DNA of 64,000 nucleotides, taken from Pseudovibrio sp. Ad37 (GTDB taxonomy: Bacteria > Pseudomonadota > Alphaproteobacteria > Rhizobiales > Stappiaceae). Positions 30,722-32,768 of the stretch are shown here, piece after piece. The notes under the pieces are model-generated. The model did no database searches. It was given only the letters and a program-made list of their open reading frames with translations, and was not told the DNA's origin. Position 1 is the first letter of the stretch. Each line of letters opens with the position of its first letter. A program made the translations under genes and the position numbers. The DNA lies in NCBI RefSeq assembly GCF_001623075.1, contig NZ_LMCF01000004.1, positions 1 through 64,000 on the forward strand, read 5' to 3'.

Positions 30722-31762
30722 ATGGCGACTACTCGGAAGACAGCGAAAAAAGAACGAAAGAAAATCAATCTGGCCTTACAAGGTGGAGGCGCACACGGCG
30801 CCTTTACCTGGGGCGTTCTGGATTGGCTCCTTGAAAACGAAGATTGGGAGATCACTGGCATCTCAGGCACAAGCGCAGGTGCCATGAATGCAGCCGTCAT
30901 GGCCGATGGCCTCGTTGAAGGCGGGCAGCAAGGCGCAAGAGATGCCCTCGCCCGCTTTTGGAAATCCGTCAGTGCCGCAGCAGAAACCAGTCCGTTCCAG
31001 CGTAGCCCGATGGATGTCTATCGCGGAAATTGGAGCATGGACAATTCTCCAACATACCTGGCATGGGACCTGCTTTCCCGTATCATGTCTCCCTACCAAC
31101 TAAACCCGATTAACTATAATCCACTCCGCGACCTCGTCGCCGAGCAAATCAACTTCGAACGCGTACGAAGCTGCGACCAGATGCAGGTCTATGTTGCCGC
31201 GACTAATGTTCGAACCGGAAAAATCAAAGTTTTCGCAAAAGAAGAGCTCACCCTTGATTCACTCATGGCATCAGGTTGCTTGCCGCACATGTACCAAGCG
31301 GTAGAAATTGGTGACGATGCCTATTGGGACGGTGGCTTTATGGGCAACCCGCCTTTGTTCCCGCTATTCCGACACGGTGGCTCGACTGATGTACTTCTTA
31401 TTCAAGTCAATCCGGTTGAGAGGGTTGAACTTCCACACACAGCTCAGGAAATCTCTGAGCGCATGAATGAAATCACCTTCAACTCAACTCTGCTGCGTGA
31501 GCTTCGCGCGATTGAGTTTGTGACACGGCTCATTGATGAAGGCCGCCTCGATTCGAACGAATACACCCGTGTTTACATGCACAGAATAGAAGCAACAAAA
31601 GATCTCGCCCCTTTCGGAGCTTCATCCAAGGTAAACGCCCAGTGGGAATTTGTAGAACTTTTGCACGACATTGGCCGCCAGGCTGCAAAGAAGTGGGCGC
31701 ACGACAATTACGACAGCATTGGCAAACGCAGCACACTGAACCTGGACCACGAATTTAACTAG
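30722..31762 (+). CDS. Patatin-like phospholipase family protein
   Basis: A 346-residue hydrolase of the patatin family. The oxyanion loop is LQGGGAHGAFTWG. The nucleophile elbow is GISGTSAGAMNA (G-x-S-x-G), and the dyad aspartate is in YWDGGFMGNPP. There is no signal peptide and the N-terminus is lysine-rich. Location directly after bdhA in the same transcript suggests a substrate related to lipid or polyhydroxyalkanoate turnover, but this is inference only. The ATG at 30722 has GGAGG 6 bases upstream; an earlier ATG at 30710 lacks this. Confidence 0.88.
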   Translation: MATTRKTAKKERKKINLALQGGGAHGAFTWGVLDWLLENEDWEITGISGTSAGAMNAAVMADGLVEGGQQGARDALARFWKSVSAAAETSPFQRSPMDVYRGNWSMDNSPTYLAWDLLSRIMSPYQLNPINYNPLRDLVAEQINFERVRSCDQMQVYVAATNVRTGKIKVFAKEELTLDSLMASGCLPHMYQAVEIGDDAYWDGGFMGNPPLFPLFRHGGSTDVLLIQVNPVERVELPHTAQEISERMNEITFNSTLLRELRAIEFVTRLIDEGRLDSNEYTRVYMHRIEATKDLAPFGASSKVNAQWEFVELLHDIGRQAAKKWAHDNYDSIGKRSTLNLDHEFN

Positions 31763-31904
31763 ATCTGAACGCAAAGGTTAACACTCCCAAACCGCATTGC
31801 AAATTGCGACGCAGCATAGGTAAGCAACCTGTTAAATTAACCCGCATGTTGGAGAGAAGAAGCGCAGCCACCCCAGATATTGTGCCAAAAATTTATCGCA
31901 AAAC

Positions 31905-31920
31905 TGGCACAGCTTTTGCT
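31905..31920 (+). promoter_or_regulatory. Sigma-54 (-24/-12) promoter, perfect consensus match
   Basis: TGGCAC-AGCTT-TTGCT on the plus strand: the invariant GG and GC are separated by exactly 10 bases, and all core positions TGGCAC-N5-TTGC match. The expected start is near 31931. The -24 half is also the right arm of a TGTGCCA / TGGCACA inverted repeat (31881-31911). A second dyad, CGCA-N8-TGCG at 31793-31808, lies about 125-140 bases before the start, where an enhancer-binding protein site would be expected. Confidence 0.65.
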
Positions 31921-31930
31921 TTTAAATAAG

Positions 31931-32014
31931 CAGCTGATATCAAGGTACTGCGTAATCAGCTTTAGAGAATATAAAGAGGGTTTTTGAGCGTGTATTCAAA
32001 GCCCTCTTTTTCTT
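31931..32014 (+). ncRNA. Candidate sigma-54-dependent small RNA, about 80-85 nt
   Basis: No ORF follows the sigma-54 promoter. Instead two hairpins follow in order. The first is AGCTGAT (31932-31938) / ATCAGCT (31955-31961), beginning almost exactly at the predicted start. The second is a terminator hairpin built from AAAGAGGG (31973-31980) and CCCTCTTT (32002-32009), extended by TTTTTGA / TTCAAA inside, and followed by TTTCTTT. Promoter, 5' stem and terminator together make a compact small-RNA transcription unit of a kind not explained by the flanking genes. Target and conservation are unknown. I see no match to a named RNA family. Confidence 0.55.
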
Positions 32015-32081
32015 TGGGCAATACATCCTCCCAACACACAGCTCTCAGAAAAAATCGTTTTATCCCTAAAAAAGTCTTTCA

Positions 32082-32141
32082 AAAAAATCAGCGTGCCAAC
32101 CTTTTGGCAAGATTTTAGCGTTAGGAAAGACACGCTGATTG
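32082..32141 (-). terminator. Structured terminator on the minus strand downstream of the L,D-transpeptidase
   Basis: On the minus strand, AATCAGCGTG (32141-32132) pairs with CACGCTGATT (32096-32087) and is followed by seven T. The large loop holds its own GCCAA/TTGGC hairpin. A further AGCGGAAG/CTTCCGCT stem lies at 32167-32210. This may end the L,D-transpeptidase mRNA after a 190-base 3' region, or a separate small RNA. Confidence 0.55.
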
Positions 32142-32333
32142 TTGAGTTATGCGTATTCAGCGCTACAGCGGAAGGAGCAGGCGTTTGCGACCCGACTTGC
32201 TTCTTCCGCTCACAAGCCTTCAAGCACATCTCTTAGCCCTTGATTTAGTAAGGAACCCACGCGCTCGCAAGGGTAAAGGGCCTTATTTGACCGATATCAC
32301 ATCATGTTCAGAGCTGCACGTAAAGCGTGTTCA

Positions 32334-32768
32334 TTATTTCACAATTACAATCTTTGCGTTTGATCGGCCATTTGCCTGAATCAAACTGAACAATCTCTTG
32401 GCGTTTTTCGGATGCAACCGCACACATCCGTGTGAAGCAGGCGCACCCAAGCGCTTAACCACATCCGTTCCATGAATGGCATACCCCTTATAGAAAAACA
32501 CAGAGTAAGGCATCGGTGCCCCGTTATACTTGCGGGAGAAATACCGTTTGTGCATTCGCGTTAGCTTAAAGGTGCCCACTGGCGTTCTGTATCCCCGCCG
32601 GGCCGTCGAAACAGGCCACGAATGCTGAACCTTCCCATCCACGAAGATTCGCATCCTTTGCTCGGAAATATCAATCTTCGCCAACACTTTAGTGGAGGAT
32701 GCCTTGGCCGGAACCATAAGCAATAAACAGATAAACAGAAGTCCTGATATAGTAATAATTGTACGCAT
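32334..32768 (-). CDS. Small L,D-transpeptidase (YkuD)
   Basis: A 144-residue periplasmic protein made of a signal peptide (hydrophobic core to about residue 23, cleavage near AKA-SS) and a bare YkuD domain. The active-site motif is IHGTDVVKRLGAPASHGCVRLH (His...Ser-His-Gly-Cys-Val-Arg). It should catalyse 3-3 cross-linking or anchoring reactions on peptidoglycan. It is the second YkuD protein in the window and is much smaller than the lipoprotein version at 24515. Confidence 0.92.
   Translation of the reverse strand: MRTIITISGLLFICLLLMVPAKASSTKVLAKIDISEQRMRIFVDGKVQHSWPVSTARRGYRTPVGTFKLTRMHKRYFSRKYNGAPMPYSVFFYKGYAIHGTDVVKRLGAPASHGCVRLHPKNAKRLFSLIQANGRSNAKIVIVK

Follow-up and report, generated by a model that had tools for sequence, protein, structure and literature searches.

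Based on all comparisons, it was concluded that the window, a stretch of 64,000 nucleotides from the Pseudovibrio genome, probably carries tandem small RNA (sRNA) genes that are governed by a LuxO-like activator together with sigma-54, in a circuit working like the Qrr circuit of Vibrio. The RNA matched no Rfam family, and the best reading of the sequence data was a circuit that would resemble Qrr in its logic and differ from it in its RNA. The predicted promoters, the LuxO-type box, the RNA family, the activator gene and the co-occurrence of RNA and activator were all established by sequence comparison.

Predicted tandem promoter and sRNA units

The sigma-54 type -24/-12 promoter of copy 1 (TGGCACAGCTTTTGCT, 31905-31920, plus strand) was recognized by a motif match and in the alignment of relatives. 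It reads TGGCAC-AGCTT-TTGCT, with GG at 31906-31907 and GC at 31918-31919, and the 10-base spacing of the two dinucleotides, proposed in the first-pass annotation, was indeed present. The motif TGGCAC-N5-TTGCT occurred 12 times genome-wide versus once for its reversed control, and comparative support was therefore needed. When 12 bases were counted from the C at 31919, the start was predicted at 31931; the independent RNA-model match began at 31930, within one base of this position and of the start (about 31931) suggested before. The sRNA of copy 1 (31931-32014, plus strand) was supported by the covariance-model match and by its fold. The 84-nt RNA gave a folding energy of -25.3 kcal/mol (z -3.57) and two hairpins. 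The 5' hairpin occupied 31932-31961, its stem being formed by 31932-31938 paired with 31955-31961, and the second, terminator-like hairpin spanned 31965-32014, with a 3' arm rich in U; its inverted repeat was 31968-31984/31998-32014. This agreed with the earlier description of an RNA of 80-85 nt with two hairpins, closed at about 32014 by a strong hairpin with a U-rich end. The hairpin ending at 32014 was absent from the output of a simple terminator scan. No ORF of at least 60 aa was found on the plus strand across 31931-32014, as the earlier description had also stated. A patatin gene (stop at 31762) lay upstream of copy 1, and its product was 99% identical to the patatins of Pseudovibrio sp. 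Alg231-02 and P. ascidiaceicola. An inverted repeat TGTGCCA-N17-TGGCACA (31881-31911) was observed over the copy-1 -24 element and was kept in close relatives only.

The first-pass annotation missed a homologous candidate sigma-54/sRNA unit directly downstream, as well as the match of the putative enhancer site to the LuxO box. The copy-2 promoter (TGGCAAGATTTTAGC, 32105-32119, plus strand) agreed with the -24/-12 motif at 8/9 positions and kept both GG and GC. The sRNA of copy 2 (32131-32218, plus strand) was recognized by matches of both RNA models described below, by its fold and by covariation. Its 5' hairpin (32133-32162) was of the same kind as that of copy 1 (GCUGA..UGCGU..UCAGC), and the long hairpin at 32167-32210 carried the loop UUUGCGACCC, containing UUGCGACCC. 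The fold of 32130-32216 gave a z of -3.89; no U run was found at the 3' side, and the given RNA end is approximate. When nine Pseudovibrio loci were aligned, the promoter, the start and the hairpins were found to be kept, and a further conserved block downstream corresponded to the second homologous unit. Two matches of the first RNA model per genome were recorded in nine genomes, all of them Pseudovibrio, versus one in the other matching genomes of the host family. Copy 2 of Pseudovibrio had no good LuxO-type box of its own. The copy-2 promoter was also spanned by an inverted repeat, AATCAGCGTG/CACGCTGATT, at 32086-32095 and 32131-32140, with a T-rich minus strand after it. Judged from its sequence, this repeat could mark the end of a convergent L,D-transpeptidase transcript or serve for regulator binding.

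Conservation of the RNA and its promoter

Two covariance models were used in the searches. R1 was built from 16 chosen copy-2 RNA rows without promoter sequence and was applied at an E cut-off of 0.01. R2 comprised 56 rows, some of them copy-1 RNAs or RNAs of distant genomes, drawn from 52 chosen loci with two distant ones (L178 and L181) left out, and was applied at an E cut-off of 0.05. R1 matched in 80/87 genomes of the host family and in 64/397 genomes of the host order (27/141 genera); R2, at E up to 0.05, matched in 96/397 order genomes and 37/141 genera. At the class level, R1 found weak matches (E 0.007-0.008) in 2/385 genomes besides the host. Copy 1 of the window, although absent from R1, was matched by this model at 31930-32022 (E 0.0025).

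The covariation of the stems, which had been proposed as a check, was observed: 19/21 base pairs varied on both sides among the 56 rows. In this alignment 94.6% of cells paired; shuffling lowered the share to 75.4%, and sliding the structure to 40-60%. The 56 rows had been aligned by fitting to the structure, which biases the result towards it; in a MAFFT alignment of 16 rows, 12/21 pairs varied on both sides. Searched against Rfam at the gathering score, the region gave no match to any family, and the window gave none to Qrr. At E up to 5, the region 31700-32400 gave a chance-level snoRNA match only and no Qrr, and 18 distant loci likewise showed no family match and no Qrr.

In the host family, genes for a patatin and a 3-hydroxybutyrate-dehydrogenase-like protein preceded the RNA. 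At ten distant loci (L138-L147) the patatin and the transpeptidase were absent, and weak dehydrogenase matches were recorded in three. As a separate observation by eye, the sRNA of several distant genomes of the order (L169, L177, L178, L181 and L186) lay 3' of a type-1 glutamine amidotransferase-like gene rather than of the dehydrogenase-patatin pair.

The RNA models hold no promoter sequence; the conservation of the promoter is thus an independent result. At the 80 host-family loci, TGGCA-N6-TTGC was matched at 9/9 positions in 63 and at 8/9 in 13, giving 8-9/9 in 76, when shuffled sequences of these loci scored 8 in 0.4% and 9 in none. A recognizable -24/-12 element was absent in 4/80 loci, namely G011, G018, G023 and copy 2 of G007. 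The spacing between promoter and RNA was fixed, with 26 nt from the T of the -24 element to the start of the RNA at 76/80 loci. Nine copy-1 loci were found by R1, and all nine had the motif at 9/9, a score of 8 being never reached in 180 shuffles; in a tenth copy 1, taken from the alignment (G006, P. axinellae), the promoter was also present by eye. From the host-order list, 20 distant loci of other families were chosen, 19 of which scored 8-9/9. L178 had no promoter at that position, and L181 had no GC. The retention of GG and GC in relatives, the other check put forward earlier, was borne out at 73/80 host-family loci and 18/20 distant loci. Taken together, the copy-1 and copy-2 promoters are supported as candidates of the sigma-54 dependent type.

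The LuxO-type box and the candidate activator

The candidate enhancer site (31794-31812) contained a LuxO box, TTGCAAATTGCGA, at 31797-31809 (9/10 positions), inside the wider palindrome GCATTGCAAATTGCGACGC, and the box lay about 108 bp before the copy-1 -24 element. In Vibrio fluvialis, a consensus for LuxO binding, TTGCAW3TGCAA, was described at 89-120 bp before the predicted starts of qrr (PMC11443567). The dyad CGCA-N8-TGCG (31793-31808), for which a role as an enhancer-protein site had been envisaged, was present and was overlapped by this conserved box. At the host-family loci the box scored at least 8/10 in 68/80 (about 4% of shuffles) and 10/10 in 32 (0/1600 shuffles); its most frequent position was 134-135 nt ahead of the RNA start. 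Scores of 6-7 were recorded at 12 loci; nine of these were Pseudovibrio copy 2, and seven of the nine had a good box upstream of copy 1. At the distant loci the score was at least 8/10 in 20/20 and at least 9 in 17, compared with 2.8% and 0.3% of shuffles, respectively.

Box and promoter were then combined in the joint pattern TTGCA-N3-TGC-N85-115-TGGCA-N6-TTGC. It occurred once in the host genome, at 31797-31919, about 0.02 occurrences being expected at equal base use. In the family it was found at 53 places in 50/87 genomes (reversed control 0), and 50/53 places stood 11-12 nt before an R1 match. The remaining three (L279, L293 and L294, in G423, G446 and G448) were observed upstream of genes that looked alike by eye; the one scanned, L293, stood by a gene with an HlyD_3 domain, perhaps Alg44-like.

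The order contained 88 genomes with the activator and no R1 match, and in a reciprocal test 60 of these were searched with the DNA pattern alone. The pattern was found in 17/60 genomes (reversed control 0/60), and R2, which contained none of these sequences, detected an RNA in 15/17 genomes, beginning 10-13 nt past the pattern and scoring 23.7-52.6 bits. No RNA was detected by R2 after the pattern in G378 and G056, nor at the second place in G352. Between box and promoter, matches to the IHF consensus WATCARNNNNTTR were scanned at 69 family loci, with 11 Pseudovibrio loci left out. A score of 9/9 was recorded in 19/69 loci (0.6% of shuffles) and of at least 8 in 48 (14%), mostly at -92/-93; in the window the match was weak by eye. 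In relatives, a CtrA-like TTAA-N7-TTAA was also seen by eye near the box.

The host genome had nine sigma-54 activation-domain matches, seven of them strong. The candidate activator, L094 (G000:C24:40756-42201, 482 aa), was encoded on contig C24, and the sRNAs were on contig C4. Its closest solved structure was LuxO (327.7 bits; the next protein was ZraR, 260.9), and LuxO was also its best NCBIfam model among the 25 models listed, at 462.9 bits, which was below the LuxO equivalog cut-off of 800 bits (NF041946). By these sequence scores the activator is LuxO-like and not a LuxO equivalog. For V. cholerae LuxO, DNA binding was reported to require eleven residues (PMC11407668). L094 shared 9/11 of them in an alignment without gap, versus 4 to 7 in six other host activators, and its receiver Asp and GAFTGA aligned with the LuxO features. 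In a small tree, many forks of which were open and which included no Vibrio LuxO, the LuxO-like proteins of the order grouped together (100/100), and a second paralog group was present in two family genomes. In Bradyrhizobium japonicum, a reciprocal best hit of LuxO was listed by a genome comparison of 2004, whose passages on this protein mention no sRNA (PMC524169). As a side observation, a DctB/DctD-like pair (L097; L097:2450-3490, 2-952) adjoined a TRAP-transporter binding protein in the host genome. TGGCACGCAGATTGCT was found near it on the same contig (C223:194216-194231), and by its sequence this is plausibly an ordinary sigma-54 promoter.

The presence of the RNA tracked that of the LuxO-like protein. 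Counted as raw genomes, uncorrected for kinship as in all these co-occurrence tests, 77 host-family genomes combined the RNA with an L094 match of at least 400 bits, 6 had neither, 3 had the RNA only (G031, G429 and G442) and 1 the protein only (p 1.1e-6). The last, G008, consisted of 980 contigs and gave no RNA match. Among the RNA-only genomes, G031 had a protein with the same helix-turn-helix that lacked GAFTGA; in G429 both features were present in a shortened frame. In the order, the LuxO-like protein was found in 57/64 R1-positive versus 88/333 R1-negative genomes, and in 85/96 R2-positive versus 60/301 R2-negative genomes. Eleven of the 96 R2-positive genomes gave no activator match at E 1e-85. 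The 60 activator-positive, R2-negative genomes comprised 10 with the joint pattern and 50, part of them pattern-searched, with none found. One order family (f6, e.g. G354 and G041) stood out among these 60; many of its genomes had a LuxO-like protein and gave no RNA or joint-pattern match, which may reflect another target or a diverged RNA.

Natural breakage of the activator was surveyed in 30 family genomes out of the 80 with the RNA, a non-random sample chosen to include odd promoters. GAFTGA is the loop that contacts sigma-54. It was lost, with the helix-turn-helix kept, in 7/30 genomes (G018, G023, G028, G033, G036, G031 and G462). The promoter loci without GG or GC, seven of 80, were G011, G018, G023, G031, G033, G460 and copy 2 of G007. 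Loss of GG/GC was recorded in 4/7 GAFTGA-less genomes versus 3/23 others (p 0.03; three of the four belong to one genus), and GG/GC was intact in the other three of the seven. Joint loss of GAFTGA and GG/GC would fit, weakly, an activator working at the sRNA promoter. G011 and G460 did not fit the joint loss, and copy 1 of G007 was still intact.

It could be proposed that the sRNAs depend on sigma-54 and the box is used by another activator, NtrC, NtrX or the unassigned protein L095, under nitrogen or other metabolic control. The host genome has genes for NtrC, NtrX and FlbD, for a DctD-like and a T6SS-linked activator and for the unassigned one, and L095 and NtrX each share 7/11 of the LuxO residues. 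The motif of NtrX is CAAN1-5TTG, and CAAATTG in the box fits it. However, the host NtrX had no GAFTGA, the box equals the LuxO consensus at 10/10 in 32/80 family loci, and RNA presence follows the LuxO-like protein, the one activator scored for co-occurrence; such an alternative activator is unlikely. The nitrogen or carbon tie and the CrcZ-like logic considered in the first-pass annotation found no support, the best-fitting activator being LuxO-like and not NtrC.

A site for the PHB-sensing repressor PhaR/AniA, or a dual site, would place the RNAs in PHB metabolism, as for MmgR of Sinorhizobium meliloti. The PhaR/AniA motif core YGCRNYGCR (PMC12542648) fits CGCATTGCA and TGCGACGCA in the window, and the dehydrogenase-like and patatin genes precede the RNA in the family. 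This core is, however, short and frequent by chance, and the MmgR core was absent. In distant families the box, the promoter and the RNA are conserved next to different genes, the box also at the ten loci mentioned above, and PHB control is therefore a minor rival that we regard as very improbable. That no sRNA system exists, the hairpins merely terminating the dehydrogenase-patatin operon and the -24/-12 matches arising by chance, can practically be dismissed: the hairpin at 32014 is terminator-like and stands some 250 nt downstream of the patatin stop codon, and the bare promoter motif recurs in the genome, but the promoter-to-RNA spacing is fixed, the unit is kept beside other genes, and box plus promoter alone led to the RNA in 15/17 genomes.

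The proposed circuit and known systems

LuxO is the master switch of Vibrio quorum sensing, and LuxO, sigma-54 and small RNAs form its core. For the preferred LuxO-like circuit we infer transcription of both units, binding of the protein to the box, service of both promoters by one box and action in trans. The LuxO-like protein, encoded elsewhere in the genome, would bind the box at 31797-31809. Once activated (in Vibrio, by phosphorylation), it would contact the sigma-54 polymerase at both -24/-12 promoters, and this contact would switch on both RNAs, which would then act in trans by base pairing. The most likely pairing segments, predicted from conservation, are the loops GGU-N-UUGCGUA-like of hairpin 1 and UUGCGACC of hairpin 2. 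The luxO-like mRNA found no support as a target in a rough scan, in which its duplex energies came close to the median obtained for 47 gene starts in the window (six of ten orthologs).

The system shares with Qrr of the Vibrionaceae the sigma-54 promoter and a TTGCAW3TGCAA box that precedes the start by about 100-135 bp. A response-regulator activator of the LuxO type is likewise encoded in the genome, and in Pseudovibrio the RNA is present in more than one copy. Qrr RNAs have four hairpins, whereas two were predicted here, and neither Qrr nor any other Rfam family was matched. Furthermore, the sRNAs and the luxO-like gene are on different contigs and do not adjoin, the activator is below the LuxO equivalog cut-off, and the tandem copies stand behind one good box. 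The alphaR8 RNAs (MmgR, SisA-D) are likewise alphaproteobacterial trans-sRNAs with several copies in some genomes. They differ in that the RNAs described here have a sigma-54 promoter and are not located beside an N-formylglutamate amidohydrolase gene. Regulation of mmgR by AniA and NtrC was reported (PMC12542648). Identity with alphaR8/MmgR was rejected, since the single-stranded alphaR8 core UUUCCUCCCU (PMC12559287) had no exact match in the window. The likeness extends to CrcZ/CrcY and GlmY, sRNAs that are also made from sigma-54 promoters with response-regulator activators. Those activators are CbrB and GlrR, and both the activators and the RNAs differ from those described here, which had no Rfam match.

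In a wider reading, for which we consider the chances to be even, a LuxO-sigma-54-sRNA switch with an RNA unlike Qrr would be old and widespread in the order, duplicated in Pseudovibrio and rewired in some lineages, where GAFTGA and GG/GC were lost and the helix was kept. It may act as a density- or surface-sensing switch, which in some species might further control an HlyD-type, perhaps Alg44-like, surface-polymer operon.

A search of titles and the beginnings of abstracts, in a library with few of the subscription journals, found no LuxO-driven sRNA in alphaproteobacteria. The present data suggest that a LuxO-plus-small-RNA circuit also exists in many members of this class. The LuxO-like activator, about which no more was known than that it is a response regulator, would thereby gain a testable handle. 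If this is true, the same box and logic, shared with a different RNA in an alphaproteobacterial order, would imply either a switch far older than Vibrio or its assembly on at least two occasions.
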